Shown piece after piece: positions 31,222-63,566 of a DNA stretch of 64,000 bases. The DNA is taken from contig CP014609.1 of NCBI GenBank assembly GCA_001586195.1, positions 1,834,001 through 1,898,000 of the forward strand, read 5' to 3'. Position 1 is the first letter of the stretch. Each line of letters begins with the position of its first letter. The notes under the pieces were generated by a model. That model did not search any database. It had not been told where the DNA came from and was given only the letters and a program-made list of their open reading frames with translations. The translations under genes were made by a program, and so were the position numbers. The stretch is from Solibacillus silvestris (GTDB taxonomy: Bacteria > Bacillota > Bacilli > Bacillales_A > Planococcaceae).

Positions 31222-31292
31222 TTCTTCAATAATATTGCCCTTTAATGAAAACTAGCGTTGATTCTTATTTCAGAATCGCGCACGATTTGAGG
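31222..31292 (+). repeat. Double-hairpin repeat, degenerate copy
   Basis: Leftmost copy of the family. TTCAATAATATTGCCC, then an inner hairpin around GATTCTTATTTCAGAATCGCGC, then the decayed right arm CGATTTGA. Together with the next copy it fills much of the 690-bp gap between the M60 gene and the orotidylate decarboxylase gene; nothing else is seen there. Confidence 0.6.
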
Positions 31293-31334
31293 TACAACAA
31301 CATTATTTAATGATTGAAAAAATTTACGGTTGTT

Positions 31335-31403
31335 GTTCACAAACTGCCCCTATAACGGATAAAGACCCTTTCCTTATTTAAGGAAAGCGCCAGTTTGTTG
31401 AAG
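31335..31403 (+). repeat. Double-hairpin repeat
   Basis: Left arm TTCACAAACTGCCCC, TATAACGG, inner hairpin CCTTTCCTTATTTAAGGAAAG, right arm CGCCAGTTTGTTGAA. Both arms differ from the common form at matching positions (AAACTG with CAGTTT), so pairing is kept. Confidence 0.8.
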
Positions 31404-31590
31404 ATCGTTTTTAAGTTAATCCCCTGTATTGAAGTATAGGGATTTGTTTGATTTATACGATACCATTGGCTTTTAATATAACATTTCGTATATATATCTT
31501 TATTGGAATATCAAAATATCTAAAAATACAGAAATCTCATTTGTTTTTAATGTATATTAGAATAGTAAAACTTTGGAATGAGGTGTTGTT

Positions 31591-32538
31591 GTGAATAGTG
31601 TTAATTATGCTGATAGAATATGTATAGAAATAAAAAAGAAGCGATCACACGCTGTTATCGGTTTGGATCCAATTATCGAACGTATTCCTACATTTATTTT
31701 GAAAGATGCGGAACAAAATTTCGGGAAATGTGATGCAGGTGCAGCAGCGGCATTTATTGCCTTTAATCAATTAATTATTGATGCTGTTGAATCTTATGTT
31801 GCAATCGTTAAGCCACAACTTGCTTATTATGAAGTTTACGGAGCTGCAGGAATAGATGCATATTGGAAAACTGTTGAATATGCACAGAAAAAAGGTTTAC
31901 TAGTAATTGCTGATGCAAAACGAGGCGATATTGATTCTACAGCAAGTGCATACGCCCGTTCATTTTTCGGAGATACCTTTAATGAATGGCAAACGCATAA
32001 AAAGGTAGATTCACTAACGATAAATCCTTATTTAGGCTCAGATAGTTTAGAGCCATTTGTTGAGCAAGCTATTTCAAAACAAACGGGTTTATTTATCTTA
32101 GTAAAGACAAGTAATCCATCATCTGGCGATTTACAAGACGTAGTCACAAACACAGGTACAATAGCTGAACAGGTCGCACAACTTGTACATAACTATGCTT
32201 TACGTGATATCGGAAAAAGTGGTTATTCTTCAATAGGAGCTGTTGTAGGCGCAACGTATCCTGAAGAACAACAAGTATTTAGAGAAGCTATGCCTTACTC
32301 ATTATTTTTAGTCCCAGGTTATGGTACACAGGGTGCTAAAGGAAAAGATATTACAAATGCCTTTAATGAGGATGGTTTCGGCGCATTAATTAGTGCCTCA
32401 AGGAGTATCATTTTTGCATATGAAAAAGATAAATCAGAAACCTTCGAACAAGTCCAATTGTCAATAATAAATGCTGTCAATATGATGAATGCTGATATTA
32501 ATACAGCGCTTAAAGATGTAGGTAAACTAAACTGGTAA
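31591..32538 (+). CDS. pyrF: Orotidine 5'-phosphate decarboxylase, type 2
   Basis: 315 residues. The catalytic D-K-D set is in IADAKRGDIDST (Asp108, Lys110, Asp113); the phosphate end shows GAVVGATYPEEQ and VPGYGTQGA. Length and KPQLAYYEVYGAAG belong to the type 2 family, larger than the type 1 PyrF of Bacillus pyr operons. GTG start with AATGAGGTG upstream. It makes UMP from OMP in the cytoplasm. It stands alone, without other pyr genes, and lies at the edge of the repeat array, so it may be an acquired or second copy. Confidence 0.9.
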   Translation: MNSVNYADRICIEIKKKRSHAVIGLDPIIERIPTFILKDAEQNFGKCDAGAAAAFIAFNQLIIDAVESYVAIVKPQLAYYEVYGAAGIDAYWKTVEYAQKKGLLVIADAKRGDIDSTASAYARSFFGDTFNEWQTHKKVDSLTINPYLGSDSLEPFVEQAISKQTGLFILVKTSNPSSGDLQDVVTNTGTIAEQVAQLVHNYALRDIGKSGYSSIGAVVGATYPEEQQVFREAMPYSLFLVPGYGTQGAKGKDITNAFNEDGFGALISASRSIIFAYEKDKSETFEQVQLSIINAVNMMNADINTALKDVGKLNW

Positions 32539-32556
32539 CTACATTTTTAATAATTT

Positions 32557-32592
32557 TAAAGATCCCAAACTTTTATCGTTTGGGATTTTTCA
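32557..32592 (+). terminator. Terminator of pyrF
   Basis: GATCCCAAAC and GTTTGGGATT arms followed by TTTT. Confidence 0.85.
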
Positions 32593-32599
32593 TAAAATG

Positions 32600-33370
32600 T
32601 TATTCAATAATCTGGCCCGGTCGTAATATGAGGTTAGCCAGATTATTCTGGTCGACCTTTTTCTTTTAGGTCTTATTATAACGGTAGTCGGGGTAGCAAT
32701 CTGGCCCGTGGGACTTCATCCCTTCCGCAAAACTGTTCACCCCCTATTAGATAGTTTATTAGAATTTCTAAGGGATATAGAGAAATTGGCTGACGGAAAG
32801 CAACCTGCGGTTATTTTAGAGTCTACAGGTCAATATCATATGCCTATCATTCAATTTTTGGAAGAGCAACAATACGTCTATATTATTGTAAATCCTCTTA
32901 TCTCTCATCGTGCTAGAAGTACAAATTTACGCAAGGTAAAGACCGATGCCATTGATGCCTATCATCTATGTGAACTGTATTACAAAGAAGAATTAGAGCC
33001 ATATAAAAAAAGATGCTACAACTCTTAAATCTTCGTAATATCACAAGACAACAAGAAACGGTATCAAGCACGGCTGCACAAACAAAGTTACAGCTACAAT
33101 CCATCTTAGATCAAGTATTTCCTGAATATAGAGGTGAGTAGCAATAATTGCTTGTGCTAATAAGCTTTTACATTGAATTTATGCCCTACTAAAAAGGAAA
33201 GAGGACTTCCAAAATGCGGTTTAAAACTATATCTAAGTACATTAAACAAAACCCTCCATTTTTAATGGGAAGGCTTATTTGGTATACCCTTTTTTAGTAT
33301 ATCATGCAGGTTTTAATATTTTTATTGAAAAATCTTGACAACACAACTATTAGCTGGTGTTGTGGAATAA
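32600..33370 (+). mobile_element. IS110-family remnant inside a repeat copy
   Basis: The left boundary is half a repeat (TATTCAATAATCTGGCCC, 32600-32618) and the right boundary is the other repeat end (GTTGTGGAATAA, to 33370). Between them lie the IS110 left end, a transposase fragment at 32708-33028 (VILESTGQYHMPIIQFLE, VKTDAIDAYHLCELYYKEE), a frameshift, and a deletion near 33138 that joins codons ~165 and ~380 of the intact relative at 51640. The right end TTTAGTATATCATG...CTATTAGCTGGT matches that of the intact copy. Inactive. Confidence 0.8.
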
Positions 33371-33387
33371 GAATCAGCTTTTTGGGA

Positions 33388-34110
33388 TTAGCGAATTATA
33401 TACTCATAGTTTTCTCCATTGGCTGTGATTATTGCTTTTAATGGTTTACCATCTTTCTCCACACTAGTTGGAACTGAAGTTAAAAAATGAACCACTCGGG
33501 TCTGCGACGGTTCAATAATTGAATTGTTTGAAATACTGAATTTATTTTCTTGAACATCTTCATAACTTTTTCTTTCAAAACTTGTAAATGAATTTAATTC
33601 CTCTCTTTCATCACAGATGATTTTAATATCCATAAAATCATCTGATTCAGATAATTCAGTAGATGAAAGGTTTCGTACAGTTACTAAAATATCTAAATAT
33701 ATTTCGTCCTTATTCCCATTGTTCAAATAATTAGAAGTGGGTCCGGAATTAGTTGGATAAATGTTCTTCCCGAAATTATTACTTTGGATCGTAAATTCAA
33801 TATAATCTTGTACTATTATTTTCTCCATTATCTTTACTTCTGTTGGAACAACTACATCATTACTATAGAACATGTTATGTGCCGCTTGTCTTAAAGTATC
33901 TAATGACTGTGTAGCAAGAAATATCATGACGATTATTGTTAATATGGCAGTGAGAATAGGGGCATACCAAGAACGAGTATTTTTGTAATCACGATTATGA
34001 ACTATAACGGTTTTCTGCAATATTTTATTACGTAATTGACTTTTGGATTTTTCTGTTATTTTTAATTCTTGTTTCAAATCATGAAATTGTTCATCTAAAA
34101 AGGGTGTCAT
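33388..34110 (-). CDS. Membrane-anchored anti-sigma-like protein
   Basis: 240 residues with one TM helix (YAPILTAILTIIVMIFLAT, about 50-68). The N-terminal ~48 residues are cytoplasmic and helical, as expected for a sigma-binding part; the remaining ~170 residues are an external beta domain (DEIYLDILVTVRNLSSTEL; TRVVHFLTSVPTSVEKDG), like the DUF4179/DUF5643 group. It overlaps the sigma gene by 20 bp, so the two are translated together. The likely role is to hold its sigma factor until an envelope signal comes. Confidence 0.75.
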   Translation of the reverse strand: MTPFLDEQFHDLKQELKITEKSKSQLRNKILQKTVIVHNRDYKNTRSWYAPILTAILTIIVMIFLATQSLDTLRQAAHNMFYSNDVVVPTEVKIMEKIIVQDYIEFTIQSNNFGKNIYPTNSGPTSNYLNNGNKDEIYLDILVTVRNLSSTELSESDDFMDIKIICDEREELNSFTSFERKSYEDVQENKFSISNNSIIEPSQTRVVHFLTSVPTSVEKDGKPLKAIITANGENYEYIIR

Positions 34111-34621
34111 AAGTAAGCCCTCCTTTCAATAACTCCTTTTTAAGTTGTGCTAAAGCTCTTTTTAAAGTCATTTTCACTTTACTTTCAGACCAGTTTAGAA
34201 CCATCGATGCTTCTTCCGTAGAGAATTCTTTTATCTTTCTCAAAATTATCACGTGTCTGTAAGTAGGTTTTAATTGTTGAATAGTTCTATACAATTGTTC
34301 GGTCTGATCATTCATGACTACGATTTGTTCAGGTATTGGATGGTAGTCTTTTTCTGTGGATGTGATATCTAAATAATGTTGTAACGGATGTTTTTTTCGG
34401 AAATAGTCATTTACAACATTAAAAGCAATTGAAAATAACCATGTTTTCACCGTCGATTTATGTTCAAATTCATGTTGCTTTTTATACGCTTTAATAAAAG
34501 TTTCCTGCGTTAAATCTTCTGCATGTTGATAGTCTTTTACTATTAAAAGTATGTAAGTTAAGATGGGGTCGCCATATTCCTCAAACCATTTAGTTAATTC
34601 TTCTTGATTCAAAATGTTCAC
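34091..34621 (-). CDS. ECF sigma factor
   Basis: 176 residues. Region 2 (YILLIVKDYQHAEDLTQETF, then KAYKKQHEF) and region 4 (LKPTYRHVIILRKIKEFS, then WSESKVKMTLKRAL) are both complete. RBS AAGAGGTG precedes a TTG start. It forms an operon with the overlapping anti-sigma gene. A TGAC-N17-CGTC element upstream suggests autoregulation. Confidence 0.88.
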   Translation of the reverse strand: MNILNQEELTKWFEEYGDPILTYILLIVKDYQHAEDLTQETFIKAYKKQHEFEHKSTVKTWLFSIAFNVVNDYFRKKHPLQHYLDITSTEKDYHPIPEQIVVMNDQTEQLYRTIQQLKPTYRHVIILRKIKEFSTEEASMVLNWSESKVKMTLKRALAQLKKELLKGGLTYDTLFR

Positions 34622-34638
34622 CTCTTTCTATAAACTTA

Positions 34639-34663
34639 GACGTAAAATAAAATCAAAGCGTCA
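34639..34663 (-). promoter_or_regulatory. Candidate ECF-type autoregulatory promoter
   Basis: On the minus strand TGAC (34663-34660), a 17-bp spacer with a T-rich patch, then CGTC (34642-34639), 18 bases before the sigma start. Spacing and elements resemble promoters read by Bacillus ECF sigma factors such as SigY. Confidence 0.5.
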
Positions 34664-34771
34664 CGTTTTTTATTATGTTTATTTTACCTAGCCGATGGTA
34701 TGTTAATAAAGCTATGAGTATAAGTAATGCAACTATAAAATATAATGGAATTTTTAGTCGTAAGAGCCTTG

Positions 34772-34800
34772 CTCAACAATATGGCCCGATTGTTGAATAA
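34772..34800 (+). repeat. Short-form repeat (outer palindrome only)
   Basis: CTCAACAATATGGCCC runs straight into CGATTGTTGAATAA; the inner hairpin present in long copies is absent. Otherwise the 34664-34972 gap holds nothing I can name. Confidence 0.75.
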
Positions 34801-34972
34801 GTTAAATTATAATCTAATTAAAAAGCCCCCTACCACTGGGTTTATTCAGAAGTAACGGGCACTGATATTATAATGTGTGATAGCGATTTCTGCTTAATAG
34901 CTAATATGCCGAGCATTGCTGTTAATTTTCAACTTTTGAATCCAAGTATATTAATAATTAAATTAAATTGAA

Positions 34973-36428: not shown

Positions 36429-36472
36429 TTTGGTTATACATATGGTATTACTTAATTTAGATATAAGGCCAA

Positions 36473-39266: not shown

Positions 39267-39353
39267 AAGTACCTCCGTAGCCAAGTATAATAAACATTCA
39301 CCCCTCACTTTAACATAAATATCCAATTTTTTTATTGTATTTTATTCAATTAA

Positions 39354-39411
39354 ATTACCCAAAAAGAGCCTTTCCTTTATTCAAGGAAAGCGACCGATTA
39401 TTAAATATCGA
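39354..39411 (+). repeat. Partial repeat copy
   Basis: Inner hairpin CTTTCCTTTATTCAAGGAAAG and right arm CGACCGATTATTAAATATCG are recognisable; the left arm is lost. Confidence 0.55.
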
Positions 39412-39467
39412 AATATAGTATTGTTGCAAATAATTCCCGAGTAATTTTTACTTTAATGAAATAATTC

Positions 39468-41846: not shown

Positions 41847-41871
41847 TTATTCCATAATCTGGCCCGATTTA
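41847..41871 (+). repeat. Partial repeat copy (left arm)
   Basis: TTATTCCATAATCTGGCCCGATTT, ending where a short-form copy would turn into its right arm. Confidence 0.55.
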
Positions 41872-41989
41872 AGGATAAAAGAATAACGCAATAAAAAAGA
41901 AGACCGTTGCCTCAACAATGGTCTTTTATATGTCATGTAAGGATGACGGTCTATACCTTGCAAAACGAGGATATTACTTCTTAAGAATG

Positions 41990-42067
41990 TTGTTCAACAA
42001 TATGGTCCTTAGCTGAAGAAGGCACAATTCCTATTCAAGAATTATGCCCTTTAATGGAAGTTGAAGG
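41990..42067 (+). repeat. Double-hairpin repeat, diverged
   Basis: TTCAACAATATGG left arm, inner hairpin AATTCCTATTCAAGAATT, and a weak right end near GGAAGTTGAAG. The remaining 41788-42347 gap shows nothing else. Confidence 0.5.
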
Positions 42068-42347
42068 GACTAAATACCATTTAATATTATTGTCAATAAA
42101 CCTCTTCATTGTATCTGTACATGAACTCTAAGTTTCCAGGTTACTAATTTTGCCGAAAAGTGATGCTACAGAGACCCCTTATCATGCTTGATTGACTAAT
42201 AGATCCCAATACTATTTTCACTTTTAAAATTCAGATAGTTAGATAAAAACACATCTATTGTAACTTTTAATAATTATTCAGAATTGTTAGACTATTATCA
42301 ACTACCATGAATACACTTAAAACTTAATTCTTTCAGGAGGGATACAA

Positions 42348-44625: not shown

Positions 44626-44709
44626 GGTGTTTGTACTTGCTGGACTTGTTCTTTAATTTATATAAAAACTTGTATAGCAAATCTCTTATCGTTATTTATC
44701 AGTATCTTC
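44626..44709 (+). repeat. Long intergenic repeat, copy A
   Basis: GGTGTTTGTACTTGCTGG, then CTTGTTCTTTAATTTAT and AAAAACTTGTATAGCAA. It is shared with 51288-51371 (most positions) and 46035-46125 (weaker), each time directly upstream of a double-hairpin repeat. Confidence 0.7.
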
Positions 44710-44711
44710 TC

Positions 44712-44778
44712 TTATTCAACAATATGGCCATATAATAAAAAGCACCTATCTTATTAGGAAAGCACCCGATTGTTGAAG
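44712..44778 (+). repeat. Double-hairpin repeat
   Basis: TTATTCAACAATATGGCC, inner hairpin CCTATCTTATTAGG, right arm CACCCGATTGTTGAAG. Arms CAAC and GTTG match. Confidence 0.85.
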
Positions 44779-44861
44779 CCCTAGCTGCTCATTGGCTATT
44801 TGTTTTTGTTTTAAGCCCTCTGTAAGTAAATTATCTACCTTTAATCCCAGAATGGTTAGCT

Positions 44862-45401: not shown

Positions 45402-45531
45402 TTTTCTTCCCTACTTCCGAAAATATAAATTCGCTGCATCTGTTGCACTAACATGCCCCGTTAGTTTAAGTACATTGCTTCACAAACTTAATTAAACTTT
45501 AACATAAATAACCAAATGTTTCTTATTGAGA

Positions 45532-45588
45532 GTTATTTCACAATATGGCCCTTTAATTGAATAAAGCACTTTTTCTTATAAAGGTTAT
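45532..45588 (+). repeat. Double-hairpin repeat, right end missing
   Basis: TTATTTCACAATATGGCCC, TTTAATTGAATAAAGCAC, inner hairpin start; then sequence diverges. Confidence 0.6.
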
Positions 45589-45824
45589 ATCTCGAGTTTG
45601 TTTATGAATTTTTTTGCAAAGAAAAAAACTACCATAGTGAGTATGAAAGGAATAACTAACTGAGATACCCAATAATTATCTATAAATCTAAGTGCAAATT
45701 GAGTTAAATCAAATACTAATGCAATGCCAGCAACGATTAGCATTATCCAAAACACATTTATGTTCTTACTTATTATAGCTAAAATAATCCCGATTACTGT
45801 AATACCTACGCTAAATGGTATCAA
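45585..45824 (-). CDS. Small membrane protein, unknown
   Basis: 79 residues with three hydrophobic stretches (GITVIGIILAIISKNI; FWIMLIVAGIALVFDL; LVIPFILTMVVFFFA). TTG start behind GAGGAG at good distance. Family not recognised. Sole gene between two repeat copies. Confidence 0.55.
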   Translation of the reverse strand: MIPFSVGITVIGIILAIISKNINVFWIMLIVAGIALVFDLTQFALRFIDNYWVSQLVIPFILTMVVFFFAKKFINKLEI

Positions 45825-46034
45825 AAGTATCTCCTCATTTCTTAAGTTTACATATTTATATAATGAGAAGTATTATAACAGACAACTATTATTACAAACT
45901 ATAATTTATTCATAACAATTTAAAAGTTTGGAGTCAAAAGAAAATTTGGTAAACGTTGTTGTAGCAGCGTTTACCGATTTTTTATTGAACATTGTTTATA
46001 CTAGATTTTATGCAAGTCAATGAAACGTACTAAA

Positions 46035-46125
46035 GCAGCTTTTATACTTTCTGGGCATGATCTTTAATTTGCATAAAACTTGTATAGCCATTCTATTACC
46101 GGTATAAATCTGCATCTTCTCTAAA
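46035..46125 (+). repeat. Long intergenic repeat, copy B (diverged)
   Basis: TTTTATACTTTCTGGGCAT, then GATCTTTAATTTGCAT and AAAACTTGTATAGCCA, aligned with copies A and C. It lies directly upstream of a double-hairpin repeat. Confidence 0.6.
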
Positions 46126-46144
46126 ACTCCCCCAAGAAAAAATG

Positions 46145-46234
46145 TTACTCAACAATATGGCCCTATAACGGAAAAACGCGATCTTCTTATTGAAGAAGGT
46201 GCTGCACCCCAAAAGCGCCCGATTGTGGAATAAA
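46145..46234 (+). repeat. Double-hairpin repeat with an internal insert
   Basis: ACTCAACAATATGGCCC, TATAACGGAAAAACGCG, inner hairpin ATCTTCTTATTGAAGA, then an extra GTGCTGCACCCCAAA, then AGCGCCCGATTGTGGAAT. The insert shares CTGCACCCCAAA with the left tip of the IS3 element at 53848. Confidence 0.8.
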
Positions 46235-46250
46235 AGTAGTCTTAAATAAT

Positions 46251-46565: not shown

Positions 46566-46673
46566 TGTACTCCCCCAATATTTAAATTTCTCAACTTAAT
46601 TCCAATATCTCTACCCGTCAATTTAAGAATACTTTTAACAATATCTTCTAAATTGTAATCTAGATAACTATGT

Positions 46674-46756
46674 TGGTTTAATTATATGTCCCTTTAAAGG
46701 AAAAGGCGAAAAAGGACCCTCTCCTTATTCAAGGAAAGCGCCAGATTGTGGAATAT
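46674..46756 (+). repeat. Double-hairpin repeat, diverged left arm
   Basis: GGTTTAATTATATGTCCC, TTTAAAGGAAAAGGCG, inner hairpin CCTCTCCTTATTCAAGGAAAG, right arm CGCCAGATTGTGGAATATC. Confidence 0.75.
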
Positions 46757-46839
46757 CTTTTTTTCGAATTTTGTATTCTCATAAAACATTCACAAAGCGT
46801 GTTTTGGATTTTCTCCTTTTCCGGAAGGACATATCAATC

Positions 46840-48235: not shown

Positions 48236-48429
48236 TTATCATATAAAATTACTGAAAATGTCAACACTCCCAATTCTTTTACATTCCGAAAGAACCATTA
48301 TAAGAATCATTCTTATTTATTCATTAGTAAATCAGTGCTGCTTTATTGCATATTTAGTAGTTCAAAAAATGTTGGACTGTTTCAAACTTCTGTTAATATT
48401 CACACAAATAATCCGTTTAAATAAAATTG

Positions 48430-48461
48430 TTATTCCACAATATGGCCCGATTGTAGAATAA
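48430..48461 (+). repeat. Short-form repeat (outer palindrome only)
   Basis: TTATTCCACAATATGGCCC directly followed by GATTGTAGAATAAC. No inner hairpin. Confidence 0.75.
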
Positions 48462-48611
48462 CATCTAAAGACGATTCTTCACTAACTGACCCGTTAGTTA
48501 AATAAACTCAACGACCATCTAGCTTTATGGAATAAAATGTAATAAAATGAATGCACTAATGATATGACCAATTTAGATACTGAGGACGATAACATAAGAA
48601 GAGGTGGTAAA

Positions 48612-49037
48612 TTGTTTAAGATTTTAATAGGAGTAACTTCTCTAATATTTATAATTATTGGCATGTTACACGTTTTTTGGGCATTTGGTGGAGTTTAGGG
48701 AGTAAAAGCGGTTCTTCCGACTAAAGATGACAGTAAATTGCCAGTTTTACAACCAAGAATGTTAGGTACACTTTTTATCGGTTTATTTTGCTTTTTTGCA
48801 TCTGTTCTACTATTAGTTCAAATAGATTTGTTTACAGTCACCCAACCCTCCCCCCTTTCAAAGTGGCTTTGTATAACTGGAGGAATTGTTTTCTTATTAC
48901 GTGCTATTGGTAAAGGAAAATATGTAGGTTTTTTTAAGAAAATAAAACATACTAGATTCGCAAAACAAGATACCGCCTTCTATTCACCTCTTTGTGTATG
49001 GATTAGTCTTATTTTTTTGCTAGCATCATTTATATAA
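48612..49037 (+). pseudogene. DUF3995-type membrane protein, broken by one TAG
   Basis: From TTG 48612 (GAGGTGG upstream) the frame reads FKILIGVTSLIFIIIGMLHV, FWAFGGV, TAG, then GVKAVLPTKDDSKLPVLQPR, four-helix membrane protein to LLASFI. Relatives have GGxWGxxxVLP here, so TGG to TAG (Trp) is the likely mutation. Everything else is intact. Single gene between two repeats. Confidence 0.75.
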
Positions 49038-49158
49038 ATTTGAATAAAGGACAATTAACAACAAAGAATTTCGCTCACGAGTTGAAACGTTACGATATAG
49101 CGTTGCTTTTGATATATTAGCTTCCGGATGCGGCATTTCAATTTGCCCATAGAAAGTA

Positions 49159-49232
49159 TTGTTCATTTATATGGCCCTATAACAGAAAAACGCGATTTTC
49201 TTATTGAAGAAACGCGCCCGATTGTTGAATGA
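49159..49232 (+). repeat. Double-hairpin repeat
   Basis: TTCATTTATATGGCCC (left arm mutated), TATAACAGAAAAACGCG, inner hairpin TTTTCTTATTGAAGAAA, right arm CGCGCCCGATTGTTGAAT. Confidence 0.8.
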
Positions 49233-49300
49233 ATAACTACAGAAAAGTTTACGAATATATCGAACAATTATGGTAATATGAAATTGTAGGGGGCATTTTA

Positions 49301-51120: not shown

Positions 51121-51189
51121 TATAGTAGGTTATTCATTTTGGTATACTTCATACAAAATAACGTTCCCAAATTAAAGTTTGGGGGCACA

Positions 51190-51237
51190 TAAAAAAGGCA
51201 CGAAACGTTGTTAAATCAACGTTTCGTGCCCTTTTGT
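51190..51237. terminator. Strong bidirectional terminator
   Basis: GGCACGAAACGTTG and CAACGTTTCGTGCC form a perfect 14-bp stem; CTTTTGT follows on the plus strand and CTTTTTTA on the minus strand... both sides can terminate. Confidence 0.85.
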
Positions 51238-51287
51238 CATTAGGTTGTGCAGCATTTTATACAGATGATGCAAACCCTAGATGGAAC

Positions 51288-51371
51288 GGTGTTTATACTT
51301 GCTGAGTTTGTTCTTAATTTGTATAAAAACTTGTATAGCAAGTTTCTTATTGTATTAATCAGCACCTTTTG
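51288..51371 (+). repeat. Long intergenic repeat, copy C
   Basis: GGTGTTTATACTTGCTGAG, then TTTGTTCTTAATTTGT and AAAAACTTGTATAGCAA; closely matches copy A at 44626 and again leads into a double-hairpin repeat (here split by IS110). Confidence 0.7.
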
Positions 51372-51390
51372 TTATTCAACAATATGGCCC
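51372..51390 (+). repeat. Left half of a repeat copy cut by IS110
   Basis: TTATTCAACAATATGGCCC ends exactly where the IS110 left end begins. The matching right part is decayed beyond 53005 (AATCTTCTTTTTTAAAGAAGG resembles the inner hairpin). Confidence 0.7.
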
Positions 51391-51639
51391 TATTCGTATT
51401 ATAAGGTCAGTCAGAGATATCTGATTGACTATTTTTTATTCTATTTATAGATTGATAGTAGCCGGGGCAGAACGTAATGGCCCTTGGGACTTGATCCCGT
51501 TCGTTAAACTGTTCGCCCTCTACTTGTTAACACATGATTAGGCTGGTTGGGACATGGAGATCCCGTATAACAAGCGAAGATATGAATAACAAGGTAGATA
51601 GAGGTTACCGGTCAATAATTCATTAGGAGGAGTTAATTC
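51391..51639 (+). ncRNA. IS110 left-end region, candidate bridge RNA
   Basis: Non-coding DNA between the IS boundary and the transposase start. It holds a hairpin GGTCAGTCAGAGATATCTGATTGACT (split: GTCAGTCAGA and TCTGATTGAC arms), a GGGACTTGATCCCGTTCG stretch, and a later GGGACATGGAGATCCC hairpin. IS110 elements encode a structured bridge RNA at this place. The same hairpins are partly kept in the remnant at 32619. Position is solid; the RNA is inferred. Confidence 0.5.
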
Positions 51640-52875
51640 ATGAATCCAGTTGTAGGTCTGGATGTGGCAAAAGGTGAAAGTCAGATTCAAATGTTTTTGG
51701 ATAAAAAAATACCTTATAAAAACAGTGTGAAAGTTGAACATACGGCGGAAGGATTAAAAGAGTTACACTCTTATTTACTAGATTTAGAGCGTCAAGCAGC
51801 GATGAAACCACCTATAGTTTTAGAAGCAACAGGTCACTATCATGCCCCAGTTGTACAGTTCTTAGAAGCAAGAGAGTACATTGTCATCATTGTAAACCCA
51901 CTCGTATCTTATCGAGCAAAAAGCTCTAATTTACGAAAAACAAAAACAGATGCCATTGATGCTTATCACTTAGGTGAGATGTATTACAAAGAGGATTTAG
52001 AGCCTCAGAAAAAGCGAGGTATTCAATTATTAAACCTTCGGCATCTAACAAGACAACATGAAAATATGACAGGAGTTATGGTTCAAACTAAGCTCCAATT
52101 CCAAGCCGTACTTGACCAAGTATTCCCTGAATACAAAGGGGTTTTTGGGAGTTTATATGCCGAGATTTCATTAAAAACATTACAAAGCTTCCCTACCTCC
52201 GAGTCTGTCTTAGAAGCAGGTAAGGAAGAAATTACTCAGTTTATTAACATGCATTGTAAAGCACGTTCATTAGAATGGGCGCATCAAAAAGCAGAGGAAT
52301 TGATCGCAGCTGCAAAACGTAACCCATTTCAATCAACACTTTATCATAGTCTTCTTGTCAGTCTGAATATGTATATAGATTTACTTCAAGCGTACCACTA
52401 CCAGCTTTCCACGTTGGAGCGTGAGATTGATGAGTTAGCGGTACAACTTGAAGAATATGAACTACTCCAAACAATTCCCGGTGTAGGTGAAATAATCGCT
52501 GCAACGATTATTTCTGAAGTCGGAGAGATTGATCGGTTTAGTCATCCTAAAAAGTTAGTTGCCTTTGCAGGACTTGATCCAAGTGTGTTTGAATCAGGAC
52601 GTTTTAAAGGTACAAAAAATCATATTACTAAACGTGGTTCAGCTAGGCTTCGCCGTATGCTTTTTACAGCCGTTCGCTGCTCTATTCGTGATAGCCGTAA
52701 AAAGAAAACAACTGATGAAACGATAGCCCGGAATAAGAGATTACGAGCCTTTTACGACTTAAAACGTGAAGAGGGCAAACCATACAGAGTAGCAATAATT
52801 GCTTGCGCTAATAAGCTTTTACACTGGATTTATGCGATGTTAAAAACCAAAACATCATTCCAAGAAACCATTTAG
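51640..52875 (+). CDS. IS110-family transposase (DEDD recombinase)
   Basis: 411 residues. The RuvC-like DEDD set is Asp8 (VVGLDVAKG), Glu62 (VLEATGHYH), Asp104 and Asp107 (TKTDAIDAYH). The C-terminal Transposase_20 domain has TIPGVGEIIAATIISEVGEI, FAGLDPS and the catalytic-serine region HITKRGSARLRR near residue 337. RBS TAGGAGGAG is strong. No stop or frameshift, so it may be active. Confidence 0.92.
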   Translation: MNPVVGLDVAKGESQIQMFLDKKIPYKNSVKVEHTAEGLKELHSYLLDLERQAAMKPPIVLEATGHYHAPVVQFLEAREYIVIIVNPLVSYRAKSSNLRKTKTDAIDAYHLGEMYYKEDLEPQKKRGIQLLNLRHLTRQHENMTGVMVQTKLQFQAVLDQVFPEYKGVFGSLYAEISLKTLQSFPTSESVLEAGKEEITQFINMHCKARSLEWAHQKAEELIAAAKRNPFQSTLYHSLLVSLNMYIDLLQAYHYQLSTLEREIDELAVQLEEYELLQTIPGVGEIIAATIISEVGEIDRFSHPKKLVAFAGLDPSVFESGRFKGTKNHITKRGSARLRRMLFTAVRCSIRDSRKKKTTDETIARNKRLRAFYDLKREEGKPYRVAIIACANKLLHWIYAMLKTKTSFQETI

Positions 52876-53093
52876 TATCATCATTTTCAAATTAAGTAAA
52901 AAACTTCCAATATTTATTTGGAGGGCTATTTGAGTTATGCATTTTTAGTATAGCATGAAGTGATTTTTTAATTAAAAGATTTTTATTGACAAACTATTAG
53001 CTGGTTTACTGAAAAAAATAATCTTCTTTTTTAAAGAAGGTACAACACCTTTTAATTGACGAACATTTAATTATAATTTGGAAACTAGCAGGA

Positions 53094-53603: not shown

Positions 53604-53799
53604 AATTAACACTCCTATCATAATTTGAAAGCCAATTAATTGGCTAAAACAAAATAAAAATAGGATATCTTAATGGCAACTACCCCCATTTATATACTCC
53701 TCAAAAAAGAGACACCAACTTTGCACTCCTTTATCAAGGGCTAACTAAGTTTACCATTCCATTATTTTCCTGTAAATTCTTATAAAAAATAAATCATAC

Positions 53800-53847
53800 C
53801 TATTCAACAATCTGGCCCTATAATTGAATAAAGCACTTTTCTTATTC
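53800..53847 (+). repeat. Left half of a repeat copy split by IS3
   Basis: TATTCAACAATCTGGCCC, TATAATTGAATAAAGCAC, TTTTCTTATTC. The last four bases ATTC are duplicated after the IS. The other half is at 55299-55330. Confidence 0.85.
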
Positions 53848-53901
53848 TGAACTGCACCCCAAATGTTAGACACAAATCTATCATTTGGAGGTGCTTTTTA
53901 T

Positions 53902-54426: not shown

Positions 54427-55265
54427 TATTTGAACTAAGGGATCAATTTAGTATAAAAGATTTAATAAAGTTAGCCGGCATTAAGCGTAGCACTTATTAT
54501 TATTGGACAAGTCGCTTTGACCAACCTGATAAATATGAAAATATGAAATCGGTGATTTCAACTATATATCACGACCACAAGGGACGGTATGGTTATCGTC
54601 GTATAACGTTAGAATTACGCAATCAAGGCTTCCTAATTAATCATAAAACTGTTCAAAGACTTATGAAGGAAATGGGTTTAAAATCGCTTGTACGTATTAA
54701 AAAATACCGTTCTTATAAAGGTAATGTAGGTAAAATTGCGCCAAACATTCTTAGTCGTAAATTCATTGCGACAAAACCAAATGAAAAGTGGGTAACGGAC
54801 ATAACTGAATTTCATTTATTTGGTGAAAAGTTATACCTCTCCCCAGTACTAGATTTATTTAATGGTGAAATCATTGCTTATAATATTCAAAGCTGACCTA
54901 CATATAAACTTGTATCGATAATGTTAGATAAAGCTTTATTTTGCTTATCCGAAGGAGATGCCCCTATCTTACACTCGGATCAAGGTTGGCATTATCAAAT
55001 GAAAGAATACTCTAATGCCTTAAAACAAAATGACATTACCCAAAGTATGTCTCGTAAGGGGAACTGTTTAGATAATGCAGTAATTGAAAACTTTTTTGGC
55101 CTATTAAAATCGGAACTCTTATATATGCAAGAATTTGAAAGTATGAATCACTTCAAGCTTGAACTTGAATTGTATATTGAATATTACAATCACAAACGTA
55201 TTAAAGGAAAATTAAAAGGATTGAGTCCGGTACAATACCGAATTCAATCCTTCCAAGCTGCTTAA
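54414..55265 (+). pseudogene. IS3 orfB (rve integrase) with an in-frame TGA
   Basis: The -1 frame after the slip site. HTH_21 (YHDHKGRYGYRRITLELR), then the DDE domain: Asp in KWVTDITEF, Asp in [11 protein letters not shown], Glu in [17 protein letters not shown] at 54894-54896 interrupts NIQS*PTYKLVS; CGA (Arg) to TGA is likely. The end [15 protein letters not shown] is typical of the group. Confidence 0.88.
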
Positions 55266-55953: not shown

Positions 55954-55987
55954 CTATTCCACAATATGGCCCTTTTATTGAATAACA
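55954..55987 (+). repeat. Short-form repeat, diverged right arm
   Basis: CTATTCCACAATATGGCCC then TTTTATTGAATAAC. Confidence 0.65.
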
Positions 55988-56619: not shown

Positions 56620-56721
56620 AAACTTACTTCCTTAAACGCTTCCTTAATTCAATTGGTTACTTCTTAAAGGTAATCCAATTTTAGATAGTAAATATTCAAA
56701 GTGTTATTTTATAAAAGAATG

Positions 56722-56795
56722 TTAACCCACAATCTGGCCCTATAACGGAAAAACGCGATCTTCTTATTGAAGAATCGCGCCCGATTGTGGAATAT
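56722..56795 (+). repeat. Double-hairpin repeat
   Basis: AACCCACAATCTGGCCC, TATAACGGAAAAACGCG, inner hairpin ATCTTCTTATTGAAGAT-like, right arm CGCGCCCGATTGTGGAAT. Arms CCAC and GTGG match, in place of CAAC and GTTG. Confidence 0.88.
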
Positions 56796-56821
56796 CGTTT
56801 TTCAACAAAAGACTCCTTTAG

Positions 56822-57298
56822 TTAATAAGAATGAATAGAATTAAACCTTCTTCCAATAAAGTTAGCAGGTACGGGGTTGAGTTCTAATTCTCTTGACCAA
56901 ATAGAGAGTTGACCAATGTGGTGAATTTCATGGGCAATTATATGGTGTAATACTTCCTCAACGGTATATTTATTTTCATCCCAAGGTACATATACAACTT
57001 CATTTTTAAATTCATCTATATCTTTACTTAGAAATTCTGCTATTTCATTTCGCAATCTATCAGAAAGAGCTTTAACCTTTTCAGGCGTATCATAATCAGC
57101 AAATTCGACTACTATGTCTTCTTTGCCTTGAATACCACGAAGCCAACTGTATTCAACATCAATAATGTGAAAAAGAGTATATAATATACTCCCTACTCCA
57201 CCAGTTCTTTCCTTTTTCAATTCCTCAATCGATAGCTGGTAACACCAATCAAACCATTCGTCTCTTACCTGCCAGTTATATTCAAAAAAATTTAACAA
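56822..57298 (-). CDS. DinB-family protein
   Basis: 158 residues from TTG 57298 (GGAG 8 bases upstream): LNFFEYNWQVRDEWFDWCYQ, then LYTLFHIIDVEYSWLRGI and HHIIAHEIHHIGQLSIWSRE. The three His (about 45, 125, 129) are the metal ligands of the DinB/YfiT four-helix fold. These are thiol-transferase-like or stress proteins. YjoA-like. Confidence 0.85.
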   Translation of the reverse strand: MLNFFEYNWQVRDEWFDWCYQLSIEELKKERTGGVGSILYTLFHIIDVEYSWLRGIQGKEDIVVEFADYDTPEKVKALSDRLRNEIAEFLSKDIDEFKNEVVYVPWDENKYTVEEVLHHIIAHEIHHIGQLSIWSRELELNPVPANFIGRRFNSIHSY

Positions 57299-57451
57299 TG
57301 TGAACACTCCAATATAATTGTTTTAACTATAAGAGTTAGCTTCTTGTCACTAAAATCCCTCTATATTTTTTTAGTAATTTGCTAAACGTTTCTTATCAAA
57401 GAAACTAATTGATCACCGTTACAATGTGTAAATAAAGAAGACCATCTAATC

Positions 57452-57484
57452 ATTATTCAACTAAAGCGCCCGATTGTGGAATAT
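57452..57484 (+). repeat. Partial repeat copy
   Basis: ATTATTCAACTAAAGCGCCC then GATTGTGGAATATC; the left arm and middle are shortened. Confidence 0.65.
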
Positions 57485-57542
57485 CAATTGGTTTCTATTA
57501 GCAGCCTTAATTAAGCACTAATATCAATTTATTTCCATGACT

Positions 57543-58418: not shown

Positions 58419-58497
58419 TATCTATTCTCCAAGTTATATTTCACTGCAGTTTAATTACATAACGGATTTTACCATAAAATACCCTTTTAAAAAAATA

Positions 58498-58571
58498 TTA
58501 TTCCACAATCTGGCCCTATAACGGAAAAACGCGACCCTCTTATTAAAGAATCGCGCCCGTTTGTGGAATAA
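58498..58571 (+). repeat. Double-hairpin repeat
   Basis: TTATTCCACAATCTGGCCC, TATAACGGAAAAACGCG, ACCCTCTTATTAAAGAAT, CGCGCCCGTTTGTGGAATAA. Arms CCAC and GTGG match. Confidence 0.88.
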
Positions 58572-58726
58572 GTAAAAACCTGCATTCTCATATAGGTTTC
58601 TTATCAAAATTAAATATAATTTATCAATCTTTATTAAAAGACCACATATAATTGGATCGATAGAAAAAAGTAGTTAAAAATAAGGTAGAGGACTAGAGAA
58701 GACAGCAGCTTCCTGCATCCCAAACC

Positions 58727-58772
58727 GCTGCCTAAATGAAATATCCGTGTCTAACTTTTAGGGGTCACTTCA
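58727..58772 (+). mobile_element. IS3 right-end scar
   Basis: CTGCCTAAATGAAATATCC then GTGTCTAACTTTTAGGGG and TCACTTCA: the last codons of orfB and the inverted repeat of the same IS3 group as at 25711 and 55274. Nothing else of the element remains. The rest of the 58572-58888 gap shows no gene. Confidence 0.75.
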
Positions 58773-58888
58773 GTGAAGTTTAAGGACTTTATTTTTATAG
58801 TCTGAACTGTCCCTTCAATTGTTAAGTGTATTCACAATTGGCGTGCATTTTATGTTTTACGTTGTTTTTCACAAATAAGTGCTGTGCT

Positions 58889-59974: not shown

Positions 59975-60521
59975 TGGGCATACCCCCTAAATCTTTTTTA
60001 AGTTTTTTCCTGCCATGGTAAAGCCGGTTATTAATAGCCGATTTTGTCATCTGCAATTGATGGGCAATTTCTTCTGTATCAAAATCTAGTAGGTACTTCA
60101 TTATAAAAATTTTCTGATCGACAGGCTTTAATGTCGAGATAATTGCCTGAATGTTCTCCTGTTCTTCTATATAGGTGCTTTCATATTTCATTAGGTCATT
60201 CTGCGTAAGCTCTATATCCAAAGAGGGGCTTTCTTTTTTCTTCATTTCCATGCGGTAATAATCGATTGCTTTATATTTTGCAATCACGCATACCCATTTT
60301 TGAAAGTCAGCTGCATCTCCTTTGAACTTTTTCGCGTTTTTCCAGATAGATAATAGAATATCGTTACAACACTCCTTTATGATGTCATTAATGTCAAGAG
60401 GACCTAAAATTTTCAATACAACACCTTTTATTAATGGAAGATAGTGATCGATTACGTAATCAAGAGCGTTTTCTTTGCCGCCTTGAAGGTATTTTATAAA
60501 ATTATGTTCATTAATCTTCAT
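59958..60521 (-). CDS. ECF-type sigma-70 family factor
   Basis: 187 residues. Region 2 (DINDIIKECCNDILLSIWKN, WVCVIAKYKAIDYYR) and region 4 (TLKPVDQKIFIMKYLLDFDT, HQLQMTKSAINNRLYHGRKK) are intact. ATG 60521 has AAAGGAG and AGAAGGA upstream and is preferred over the frame start at 60554. Operon with the DUF4179 gene; the second sigma/anti-sigma pair of the window. Confidence 0.88.
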   Translation of the reverse strand: MKINEHNFIKYLQGGKENALDYVIDHYLPLIKGVVLKILGPLDINDIIKECCNDILLSIWKNAKKFKGDAADFQKWVCVIAKYKAIDYYRMEMKKKESPSLDIELTQNDLMKYESTYIEEQENIQAIISTLKPVDQKIFIMKYLLDFDTEEIAHQLQMTKSAINNRLYHGRKKLKKDLGGMPIEKSV

Positions 60522-60721
60522 TTCCTTCTCCTTTATATAGTATTGATACTGCAAAAGCCTTTACATTATATATAACGTTAAATGGCACCTATTTTTCGCA
60601 AAAAAGCCCAAAAAAGTTGAAATATTGAAACACATATCGACTTTATTTCAAATTTCTTAACTTATATTTATAAGGGCGTCATTGCTATCAAAGTGTTGTT
60701 TAGTAAACTTCATAACAGATT

Positions 60722-60797
60722 GTTATTCAACAATATGGCCCTATAACGGAAAAACGCGATTTTCATATTGAAGAAACGCGCCCGATTGTTGAAAATC
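60722..60797 (+). repeat. Double-hairpin repeat
   Basis: TTATTCAACAATATGGCCC, TATAACGGAAAAACGCG, TTTTCATATTGAAGAAA, CGCGCCCGATTGTTGAAA. Arms CAAC and GTTG match. It accounts for the only structure seen in the 60522-60999 gap. Confidence 0.9.
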
Positions 60798-60999
60798 GTT
60801 AACTAATGCTTCTGTTAGTTGTAGTCGAGTTCGATTAAAGTATGTAGATTTCTAGCGTTATAATTTGTCTGAATACACTTTTTAAGATAGCACACCTATA
60901 AAGTTTTCTGCGAATATAGATTTGAATTAATCGTACCATTTGTAAAAAAAATACAAATTATTATCCACTTAGATTATAATTCTCTAGGGGGGTGCTTTT

Positions 61000-61866
61000 A
61001 TGTCTAAAAGTGTAAGAACTTCTGAGGGTACGAGAACCAAATTGATGTTAGATTTGCAAAGAATTGAGAAGGATAAGTATCAGTTACGCGAAGGTGAGCA
61101 ACATCAAGACTTCTTACCTTTGTTACTTCAATACATTGGTGATCCTGAGCCAGAATTGCGGGATAACCTGATTTATCCGATGTTTTATATGTGGATCAAA
61201 GAAGAGAAGAGGTTTAATGGTGAGGAGTTGCGTAGCCTCTTAACTGTTCTGACTGATGAAAATCATTTGTTCTATAATATTGGTAGCGTGGAGGACCAGT
61301 CAGTTTTTACAAGGTCGTTCTCTGCATTGCCTATCGCCTTGATTGTGCAACGACACAGACAGAAACAATTTTTAAAGCAATCGGAAATTGAACAATTAAT
61401 GCATGTAATGCTCCGTTATTATAAAGAGGAGAAGGATCTGCGAGGTTACATTACAATAGGAGGCTGGGCTCACAGCGCTTCTCACGGTGCGGATGTTTTT
61501 GTCGAGTTAGTGCAGTGTGAGGAGAGTAGCGTCCCAATGCTACGAGAGGTTCTTGTCGCTATTTCTGGCATGCTTCAAAATGGTAAACATATTTTTTGTG
61601 ATGAAGATGATGAGCGGTTGGTCAACATCGTGGATACGATGATTGACCAAGTTTTACTTCCACATCAATATTTGACTGATTGGGTTAACAGTTTAGCGCA
61701 ATGCTGCAATTTCCCTAGAAGTCGCAGTCAGGTGGTAGCTCGTGTAAACTCCAAAAATTTTTTACGCAGTCTTTATTTCAGAAGGAGACAAGAAAGCCGA
61801 GGGAATCAGCTTAACACTGTTATGCTTGATACTGAGGCACAATTAAACAGGTTTTCTATCAACTAA
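61000..61866 (+). CDS. DUF2785-family protein
   Basis: 288 residues, all helical. LLQYIGDPEPELRDNLIYPM, FTRSFSALPIALIVQRHRQK and YITIGGWAHSASHGADVFVE follow the DUF2785 pattern; the helical pairs suggest a HEAT-like solenoid. Cytoplasmic, function unknown. RBS GGGGGGTG precedes ATG. Confidence 0.82.
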   Translation: MSKSVRTSEGTRTKLMLDLQRIEKDKYQLREGEQHQDFLPLLLQYIGDPEPELRDNLIYPMFYMWIKEEKRFNGEELRSLLTVLTDENHLFYNIGSVEDQSVFTRSFSALPIALIVQRHRQKQFLKQSEIEQLMHVMLRYYKEEKDLRGYITIGGWAHSASHGADVFVELVQCEESSVPMLREVLVAISGMLQNGKHIFCDEDDERLVNIVDTMIDQVLLPHQYLTDWVNSLAQCCNFPRSRSQVVARVNSKNFLRSLYFRRRQESRGNQLNTVMLDTEAQLNRFSIN

Positions 61867-61873
61867 AGGAGAA

Positions 61874-61913
61874 AGGGACAACCCCAAAAGCTATGATTAA
61901 TTGAGGGGTTGTC
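61874..61913 (+). terminator. Hairpin after the DUF2785 gene
   Basis: GGACAACCCC and GGGGTTGTCT arms; no clean T-run follows, so efficiency is uncertain. Confidence 0.5.
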
Positions 61914-61964
61914 TGGCATGAATATCTACTTAAAGGCTCCAACTTAACAATACTAAATGCGTGC

Positions 61965-61992
61965 TTCATTAAAGCGCCCGATTGTTGAATAG
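61965..61992 (+). repeat. Partial repeat copy (right arm)
   Basis: TTCATTAAAGCGCCCGATTG then TTGAATAG; left part missing. Confidence 0.65.
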
Positions 61993-62026
61993 TATAAGAT
62001 ATATCTCTTTCGAATCTTAATATTTA

Positions 62027-62605
62027 TTAAAATGATCTTTCAAAACAAACACATTTGTGAACACGGTTATTACTTTTAAATTGGTCAATATCGTTCCCAA
62101 CGTAATGAGTGAAAGTGTTAACTAAATAGAGATTAGGTATGTTACTTTGAATTTTATGTTTCATTTCGCTTCCCTCAAAATAAACGTGGTAATAGGAATC
62201 AACCATTTTAAATTTCATTTTTTCATACCAGGTTTGAACCCAAAGATCATCTCTTGTCCACGCCTCAAAACGATTAATATTCATTTCTTTTGCTTTAGTT
62301 TCGGCAGCATAGAGTAGTTGTTGTCCTATTGCTCGTCGAGAAAAATCTGGATGAACAGCAATGTGCCAAATCATTCCACCTAATCCTTCTCCTCTGGAGC
62401 AAACTGTTCTTTCTTCTTTTTCAAACTCTACATCAATAAGCCCAACAATTTGACCATCTAATTCTGCGACTAGCTCAATTGCCGGATTTTGATAATGTTC
62501 TTTCTTATTTAGTACATTATCAAAATAAGCTGTCTGTAAAAATGCAAGTGTTCGGCATCTTACCCAACCAGTTTCATCAGTAACTCTATAGTTTCTAATA
62601 ATCAC
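62027..62605 (-). CDS. GNAT-family N-acetyltransferase
   Basis: 192 residues; GNAT core with IAVHPDFSRRAIGQQLLYAA (acetyl-CoA loop) and TWYEKMKFKMVDSYYHVYF. GTG start behind CGGAGG. The C-terminal ~40 residues extend past the domain. Fourth acetyltransferase of the array. Confidence 0.85.
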   Translation of the reverse strand: MIIRNYRVTDETGWVRCRTLAFLQTAYFDNVLNKKEHYQNPAIELVAELDGQIVGLIDVEFEKEERTVCSRGEGLGGMIWHIAVHPDFSRRAIGQQLLYAAETKAKEMNINRFEAWTRDDLWVQTWYEKMKFKMVDSYYHVYFEGSEMKHKIQSNIPNLYLVNTFTHYVGNDIDQFKSNNRVHKCVCFERSF

Positions 62606-62796
62606 TTATATACCTCCGGATTTTAGGAACCACGTAGTTTATAGGGGATTTATACGCTTATCCCTTAAAATTGATTCACCCCGTTTAATTTGTTCGTGAA
62701 TTTCATAATATATACCGCCTCCTTTACTAACAATTATTTAAATTCTACCATACATTCCCAATACATAGAGCGATAAATAGGTATTTCACTACCCAT

Positions 62797-62862
62797 AAAA
62801 GGGTCTTAAAAAAGGGGAAAGCCCAATTCTTATTACAGAATTGCGCCCGATTGTTGAAGATC
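62797..62862 (+). repeat. Double-hairpin repeat, left arm lost
   Basis: Inner hairpin CAATTCTTATTACAGAATTG and right arm CGCCCGATTGTTGAAGATC. Confidence 0.75.
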
Positions 62863-62878
62863 GTTTTTCTGAATAGGT

Positions 62879-63394
62879 TTATAACATTTTAACCTTTTCA
62901 AAAATCTCTTTATAAAGAACATCTAACTCTTTTTCATCATTTAAATAGAAATACCAAACATCTTCTCTATTGGCATCTTTATCGGATAAATAAATTGTCG
63001 AATGTGAACCGTTTTCTAGTGATTCCCATCTCGCTGTTTCGTATGTATATCCTACTTTTGTAAATGGAAGATTCCTTTTTTCGGAATCAAAAAAGATATA
63101 GGGGATTTTAGAGTTATTATAAACTTCAACAAATCGATCATTAGAAGCTTCTTCAAACATCAATGGTGTTATCATAACTGCATCAAAATTTGTTGAAATC
63201 TGTACTGTATCTTCGCTAAGTTCATCTAATGAAATTTTTTCAAAACTAATTTTTTTATTATTTAGATCAGGAATATCACCAATTACAGCGATTTTTAAAG
63301 GTTCTCCATCATATTTAACTTCTTCTTTTGAACATGCGTTTAGATTTAGTAAGAATAAAATAGATATAAGACCTAAAATCTTATTTAATTTCAT
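62879..63394 (-). CDS. Lipoprotein, unknown
   Basis: 171 residues: signal with lipobox LNAC (LISILFLLNLNACSKEE) and an external domain with a Rossmann-like beginning (LKIAVIGDIPDLNNKKISFE) and FDAVMITPLMFEEAS, reminding of periplasmic-binding or response-sensor folds. GGGGGC lies before ATG. Not assignable to a family by eye. Confidence 0.7.
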   Translation of the reverse strand: MKLNKILGLISILFLLNLNACSKEEVKYDGEPLKIAVIGDIPDLNNKKISFEKISLDELSEDTVQISTNFDAVMITPLMFEEASNDRFVEVYNNSKIPYIFFDSEKRNLPFTKVGYTYETARWESLENGSHSTIYLSDKDANREDVWYFYLNDEKELDVLYKEIFEKVKML

Positions 63395-63492
63395 TGTAAA
63401 GCCCCCTAAATAATGTATGTCATAATATTACCATTTAAGGGTTATTTTATATAGATGCTGTTGAATGAGTTATTTTGATAAACTTAAAATTG

Positions 63493-63566
63493 TGATTCAA
63501 TAATATGGCCCTATAACGGAAAAACGCGACCCTCTTATTAAAGAATCGCGCCCAGATTGTTGAATA
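63493..63566 (+). repeat. Double-hairpin repeat
   Basis: GATTCAATAATATGGCCC, TATAACGGAAAAACGCG, ACCCTCTTATTAAAGAAT, CGCGCCCAGATTGTTGAAT. Confidence 0.88.

Follow-up and report, generated by a model that had tools for sequence, protein, structure and literature searches.

What is the repeat that recurs between small accessory genes over half of this stretch of the Solibacillus silvestris chromosome, and does it serve to move them? The window, meaning the whole stretch of 64,000 nucleotides analysed here, covers positions 1834001-1898000 of the single contig (C1, 3.99 Mb) of genome G000. The original prediction had described an array of about 20 copies of one repeat from 31.2 kb onward and proposed that gene cassettes had been added at these copies in one direction. 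We read the repeats, called type A sites below, as recombination sites of a gene-cassette system whose catalyst is likely the tyrosine recombinase Int-A, with a sister enzyme, Int-B, and type B sites in parallel, and we give this reading a probability of about 75%. The system would be integron-like, with an acting recombinase other than IntI.

Repeat copies in the window and their anatomy

A search of the window with R1, a covariance model built from 24 repeat copies (threshold E ≤ 0.05), found 17 copies between 31211 and 63575, all on the forward strand, and a pattern scan added six half copies in the same direction. The two half-site patterns matched 24 and 15 times, reverse readings of near-palindromic copies included, against 0.74 and 0.05 times in shuffled sequence. 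A lone reverse-strand R1 row at 48422-48472 is the palindromic short copy at 48419-48469 read in reverse. Copy number, starting point and shared polarity were therefore as predicted. That the first 31 kb lack the repeat was borne out for R1, which has no match there, and fails for one right-half pattern match at 1929-1945 (reverse strand, 2 mismatches), which we excluded from the count. The array runs beyond the window to ~1,935 kb of the chromosome, ~70 kb in total.

The repeat had been described as one uniform double hairpin of ~70 bp, and this description had to be given up. A core site of ~30 bp comprises the arm TTATTCAACAAT, an asymmetric spacer with GCCC at its end, and the arm ATTGTTGAATAA. 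The long form, which is the usual one, contains two such core sites in tandem, pointing in the same direction and flanking a short hairpin; the first reads TTATTCAACAAT-ATGGCCC-TATAACGGAA (right arm also given as TATAACGGAAAA) and the second TTATTGAAGAAT-CGCGCCC-GATTGTTGAATAA. The short form is a single palindromic core.

The array opens with a degenerate long form at 31211-31302 (R1 score, 46.7 bits), and a second lies at 41979-42070 (34.4 bits). Long forms occupy 31321-31413 (65.4 bits), 49148-49240 (88.3 bits), 56711-56803 (100.5 bits), 58487-58579 (99.4 bits), 60712-60804 (99.8 bits), and 63482-63575 (90.7 bits), with a short insertion at 46134-46241 (65.9 bits), a variant centre at 44701-44788 (49.8 bits) and 46663-46764 (37.7 bits), and a degenerate left half at 62777-62869 (28.0 bits). 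Short forms are found at 34758-34808 (CTCAACAATATGGCCCGATTGTTGAAT, core at 34772, 29.6 bits) and 48419-48469 (core at 48433, 38.7 bits), and degenerate sites at 39331-39416 (35.4 bits) and 45522-45616 (35.3 bits); the site at 53789-53881 (40.3 bits) is followed by an IS3-like element with rve domains at 54921-55262. Left halves lie at 32603-32618 (2 mismatches; direct repeats D7, D11, and D12), 41850-41865 (3 mismatches), 51375-51390 (exact), and 55957-55972 (1 mismatch), and right halves at 57466-57482 (1 mismatch) and 61974-61990 (exact). Many intervals conform to the expectation of one gene or operon each; some are broken up by IS110 and IS3 elements, and only five recognisable whole or half copies fall between 31.4 and 44.7 kb.

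Within a site, the left arm matches the right arm at 7.99 of 12 positions (96 sites compared), against 7.83 for random pairs (95% range, 7.42 to 8.26). The 24-copy alignment has 80.1% paired cells against 77.7% when shuffled (reached in 0 of 500) and a covariation score of 0.100 against 0.084 (reached in 28 of 500), a weak signal in favour of pairing. Hairpin folding z-scores range from −2.0 to −5.0, the variable base of the right arm gives GTT in 63 and GTG in 28 of the 96 sites, and no Rfam model matches the repeats at gathering scores. The arms thus covary at most weakly, and since they agree no better than random over the 96 sites, the repeat is probably not a functional hairpin; each arm appears to be constrained mainly alone, like a double-stranded recombinase site.

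Two neighbouring features deserve mention. A segment of ~250 bp to the left of several sites (window 45923-46197 and 51157-51370), in which no open reading frame (ORF) of ≥70 aa is listed, is 70-95% identical to units of six other genomes; it may represent either a cassette that lacks an ORF or a further conserved part. An ORF of 1,699 aa (25804-30903, reverse strand) lies directly ahead of the first site of the array.

Polarity and distribution of type A sites

Genome-wide, G000 holds at least 59 copies (E ≤ 0.01), a lower bound since 150 of 3,298 first-look candidates were scored. Of these, 31 are on the reverse strand (373-378, 1011-1012, 1412-1525, and 2894-2899 kb) and 28 on the forward strand (1628-1668, 1865-1935, and 2960-2968 kb). 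When copies less than 40 kb apart are linked, each cluster is one-way, and orientation switches four times around the chromosome (reverse at 374-1526 kb, forward at 1628-1935 kb, reverse at 2894-2899 kb, and forward at 2960-2968 kb). The same holds among relatives, where a covariance-model scan, as had been suggested, again found the copies in one-way clusters: of 108 pairs of neighbours within 15 kb in the stretches compared from Solibacillus and one relative, 106 agree in polarity, both discordant pairs being in G004 (best 150 of 215 matches, the 65 weaker ones excluded). Polarity is a property of each array. Copies in both orientations across the genome, contents that never change, and an even spread over core genes had been named in advance as signs against a cassette mechanism; the first was seen in the literal sense, although every cluster is one-way, and neither of the others was.

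In a survey of 61 genomes (strict filter, 70 candidates scored per genome), type A copies occurred in 15 of 16 Solibacillus genomes, in 8 of the 21 that represent the remaining genera of the family, and in none of the 24 drawn from the rest of the class. A search of 84,980 species for the exact left-half pattern gave 58 matching stretches, all in genera placed in Bacillales.

Exchange of units between genomes

Units found at the sites are also present, 94-99% identical, in other Solibacillus genomes, where their flanks differ. A cassette with a GNAT gene (61974-62869) is found in G008 (G008_C13:1597333-1598229, 99.1%) and one with a DinB-family gene (56773-57487) in G006 (G006_C1:646845-647558, 98.6%), each between different flanks, and a unit with a DUF3995 gene (48422-49171) is found in G012 (G012_C2:205247-206008, 95.7%), with sites at both ends here and at one end there. 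By comparison, window DNA at 10.0-18.4 kb has ten matches in these relatives, at 68.6-88.0% identity, and because the GNAT, DinB, and DUF3995 units reach 95.7-99.1%, they look recently exchanged. A further cassette, with a 171-aa ORF (62839-63480), is present four times in G000, three copies lying between sites, and also in G012. At the joints examined, the sequence after GCCC is common and the sequence before it differs, or vice versa.

The ends of BLAST matches (≥300 bp, ≥85% identity; two IS110, one IS3-like, and one other insertion sequence [IS] masked) point to the core as the place of exchange. With each match counted from both sides, 46 of 460 ends fell within 15 bp of a core, against a mean of 5.0 and a maximum of 17 in 500 rotations, and both ends fell within 40 bp of a core in 12 of 230 matches (8 distinct pairs or reverses) against a mean of 0.2 and a maximum of 3. 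The comparison of intervals proposed earlier thus found that genomes have units in common, in shuffled arrangement, and that breakpoints are over-represented at the sites. Cassette mobility is well supported by these sequence comparisons, which find a one-way array of exchangeable gene cassettes, as in integrons. Polarity, shuffled intervals, and breakpoints at the core together speak for site-specific, one-directional cassette addition, as first proposed, rather than for terminators.

IS110-family elements with a 411-aa transposase stand directly after GCCC within sites of several arrays (window 51375-53000 and 32603-33370, and L010:6051-7286), and the repeats seem to be a target of these elements. 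In the element inserted at 51375-51390, the transposase gene runs from 51640 to 52875 on the forward strand (DEDD_Tnp_IS110, 1.6e-29; Transposase_20, 1.9e-25), and the sequence after the left half at 32603 resembles this element (51.4-53.0 kb) and is taken as an IS110 remnant. Elements of the IS1111 type are described as targeting attC. Ahead of the array, at 23721-25015 (reverse strand), two tandem thiamine pyrophosphate (TPP) riboswitch aptamers (24703-24801 and 24859-24956) lie upstream of an ORF at 23753-24520. Its counterpart in G008 (G008_C13:1609204-1610501, 92% identity) is part of an array and has a further match, flanked by two sites, at G000 1522154-1523492; the TPP-riboswitch gene may therefore travel as a cassette.

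A XerA-like recombinase between type A sites

None of the window's proteins matches Phage_integrase. Elsewhere in G000, a C-terminal fragment of Int-A (157 aa used) ends less than 80 bp from the site at 1,494 kb, and longer relatives were found in the family among the matches listed, in a search that matched 200 of 200 genomes since XerC/D-like proteins match too. By its sequence, Int is a XerA-like tyrosine recombinase of ~285 aa with the catalytic set R149-K173-H240-R243-H266-Y275. Five proteins exceed the cut-off of 220 of model NF040815 (L122, 227.7; L120, 224.6; L143, 224.3; L148, 222.8; L124, 221.4), and L132 falls below it at 208.7. The IntI model TIGR02249 gives six Int proteins 89.1-104.4 bits against a cut-off of 265, and a search of G000 for IntI returned nothing above the cut-off. 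The catalytic K-to-H spacing is 67 residues in L122, compared with about 72 in XerD and about 106 in IntI1. The nearest solved structures to Int, by sequence and by a structure model (mean pLDDT, 72.7; pTM, 0.48), are of Xer types (4a8e, 1a0p, and 5hxy); the best TM-scores of the model are ~0.5, which points weakly to a Xer fold.

Recognisable type A halves flank the int gene on both sides at L120, L124, L127, and L130. A type A left half (≤5 mismatches of 19) was found downstream of int at 8 of the 13 clade A loci, L126 being left out as identical to L125, and in the neighbourhood of none of the 13 clade B loci. Several pairwise comparisons show a conserved int unit that begins at GGGCGC with unrelated sequence ahead, and int therefore behaves as a cassette. 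In G218, an intact int stands among four type A sites, all on the forward strand. The original prediction had suggested looking for a recombinase next to an array end; a tyrosine recombinase does lie between two sites in relatives, inside arrays rather than at a fixed end, and in G000 only the fragment is present.

The 43-bp insert of the long form and the int unit have similar ends. This form may represent either a composite site like attC or an int cassette that has lost its gene.

Among 299 genomes of the class, 15 had an Int match at E ≤ 1e-75; eight of the 15 belong to other families. Eight plasmid records carry an Int relative at 56.6-65.2% identity, and a phage collection gave one distant match (37.7%). 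For most members of a further Int clade, 77-80% identical (L134 to L138 and L141; genus g3), no site could be recognised in the vicinity; this clade may have been domesticated or may act on a different type of site.

Four tandem tyrosine recombinase genes of G000 (C1:355129-359685, L009:5129-9685; 298, 277, 616, and 281 aa) were considered as a platform and rejected; three of them match the Int-A fragment at 36-39% identity, and no site was recognised there. Another tyrosine recombinase gene lies at 383.2 kb near an SLH-domain gene, and similar tandem clusters are suggested in G108, G145, G168, and G180.

Int-B and type B sites

Int-B forms a sister clade, 64-72% identical to Int-A, that adjoins type B sites, AACTAACCTGCMCCGTTAGTT (also written AACTAACCTGCCCCGTTAGTT). 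A type B left half was recognised close to 8 of the 13 clade B loci and, among the 13 clade A loci, close to one, there with 5 mismatches. These sites are one-way as well: in stretches of G026, G015, G218, G189, and G079, all 91 of 91 neighbours within 8 kb agree. They number up to 204 per genome (G156), with a median of 53 in the 21 genomes where Int-B is among the matches listed and of 1 in 59 others (Mann-Whitney P = 9e-10, the genomes not being independent). Within Solibacillus, two genomes with Int-B have 120 and 80 type B sites, and the other 14 have 1 to 5 except G002 (44). The window itself contains one type B core site at 45446-45466 (forward strand, 2 mismatches; 0 in 100 shuffles).

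On plasmid pSP10-266k of Sporosarcina psychrophila (L178, NZ_CP146247.1 3570-34406), Int-B stands between type B halves. Five type B sites at ≤2 mismatches point in one direction, with a sixth at 4 mismatches; a GNAT gene and an IS110 gene lie between type B sites, and merA and merR lie beside the array. Int-B and type B sites probably form a parallel system.

Weighing the explanations

Several observations weigh against a cassette system driven by Int. As many as 414 of the 460 BLAST ends lie more than 15 bp from any recognised core, perhaps partly because sites have decayed or belong to other types. A clean empty site was sought in a stretch syntenic between G000 and G012, where an indel beside two sites is not at a site, and the signature of a cassette circle, a right arm that equals the left arm of the next site, was not seen (7.77 against 7.83 at random). 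On the enzyme side, G000 lacks an intact Int-A and only ~6 of 13 clade A loci look intact: L119 is a fragment, and L121, L124, L131, and L139 are shortened or broken; among 22 aligned proteins, the first catalytic R is lost in L130 and the second H in L123. Type A sites have a median of 9.5 in 12 genomes with a long Int-A ORF and 8.5 in 38 without, so that site number and Int-A do not correlate. The right halves of type A and type B are alike and cross-match, which leaves the pairing of Int and site to the left halves, and the link of Int-B with type B sites is mostly between genera: in genus g5, genomes without listed Int-B still have 29, 56, and 9 type B sites, and in genus g14, no clear difference by Int-B was found. 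Recognisable site halves lie near only 3 of 9 copies of the 77-80% identical Int clade. Neither an attI-like platform nor an array promoter was seen, in work that included no model-based search for attI or Pc.

These points bear most on the identity of the enzyme. The arrays could be real cassette arrays on which another recombinase acts, host XerC/D or another tyrosine recombinase, with Int a cargo or parasite using the same sites. The lack of correlation between type A sites and Int-A, the many arrays in genomes without listed Int-A, the presence of host Xer-like and further tyrosine recombinases, and the weak Int-B link within genera all agree with this. We nevertheless hold it to be unlikely: the two Int clades adjoin different left-half sites, type B sites are more numerous where Int-B is listed, and the arms are unlike dif. 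A true integron or cluster of attC sites lacking integron-integrases (CALIN), in which IntI acts on attC through folded single-stranded DNA, has the anatomy in its favour, namely, the two-half layout R''-spacer-L'' ... L'-spacer-R', ends of the form ATTCAAC...GTTGAAT that fit the RYYYAAC/GTTRRRY boxes, one-way arrays with attC-like cargo, the hairpin z-scores, and pairing in the 24 copies slightly above shuffles. The absence of IntI above the cut-off in G000, the low IntI-model scores of the six Int proteins, arms that match no better than random over the 96 sites, a right-arm GTT that often reads GTG, and ORFs in both directions make it highly improbable.

Other accounts do without cassettes. 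Multiple intergenic copies, and a 43-bp insert with ends like those of the int unit, possibly an internally deleted derivative, would suit MITE-like or REP-like elements inserted singly by a transposase; independent insertion should give both orientations, whereas neighbours agree in 106 of 108 and 91 of 91 cases, and entire gene units rather than repeats alone are common to genomes, so this account seems very remote. Terminators or regulatory RNA hairpins would likewise be intergenic inverted repeats with favourable folding energy and could account for the weak pairing signal in the 24 copies, but a polarity independent of gene strand, arm matching at chance over 96 sites, the lack of an Rfam match to the repeats at gathering scores, and the exchange of units at the core leave them barely credible. 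Last, one-way clusters of a hairpin-rich element might reflect strand-biased insertion into single-stranded DNA of one replication strand, as by IS200/IS605-type elements. Two replichores allow two orientation switches and four are seen (origin and terminus were not located), and we regard this as next to negligible.

Comparison with known systems and proposed mechanism

The arrays resemble chromosomal integrons and CALINs in being long, one-way series of small units, many without an integrase, in their composite two-half sites with conserved ends and a variable centre, and in being targeted by IS elements. They differ in that the integrase is XerA-like, lacks the IntI insertion, and seems itself to be a cassette rather than part of a fixed platform; in addition, no attI or Pc was seen, arms match at most weakly, and ORFs run both ways. 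The IntegronFinder 2.0 paper describes integrons as rare in Firmicutes, with a single complete one in the whole phylum (Limnochorda pilosa) and few CALINs (PMC9024848).

The dif modules (pdif) of Acinetobacter plasmids also have short Xer-type sites that bound exchangeable genes and are targeted by IS elements (PMC10132070). Here, unlike there, the sites are near-palindromic and unlike dif, are served by integrase clades of their own, and form chromosomal arrays of tens to hundreds. The dif-like sites of host XerC/XerD in such modules alternate in orientation; the sites described here do not alternate and are one-way per array. Single-recombinase XerA/XerH systems contain the best matches of Int by sequence and model and act at a single dif site, unlike the many sites around accessory genes found here.

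We propose that Int would cut two direct sites at the GCCC spacer or immediately next to it. Because the sites of an array point the same way, DNA between two of them would be excised or inserted as a circle rather than inverted. A cassette would extend from the right arm of one site through the left part of the next, in keeping with the boundaries seen in the examples. The int cassette may arrive, move other cassettes, and then be lost; since G000 keeps only a fragment of Int-A, the movement of its arrays probably depends on an Int that is gained and lost. The type A count is unrelated to Int-A, and therefore either arrays often persist without an integrase, as CALINs do, or another recombinase acts.

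Among the best-ranked results of a search of open-licence papers, preprints excluded, none described such a cassette system in Bacillales. On balance, we lean toward a third independent class of cassette system beside IntI integrons and dif modules. Bacillales would carry tens to hundreds of double-stranded, one-way composite sites with two or more specificities (A and B), and a XerA-like integrase particular to each would move as a cassette and in this way seed arrays that have no fixed platform. One paper treats the origin of integrons from a Xer-like double-strand recombinase as an open question (PMC7790495). If our reading is correct, the system would be an independent invention or a model for a pre-integron state, and would resemble the proposed ancestor of integrons before IntI gained the I2 helix for single-stranded attC. 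It could also explain the exchange of small accessory genes among soil Bacillales, including on a plasmid beside a mercury operon.

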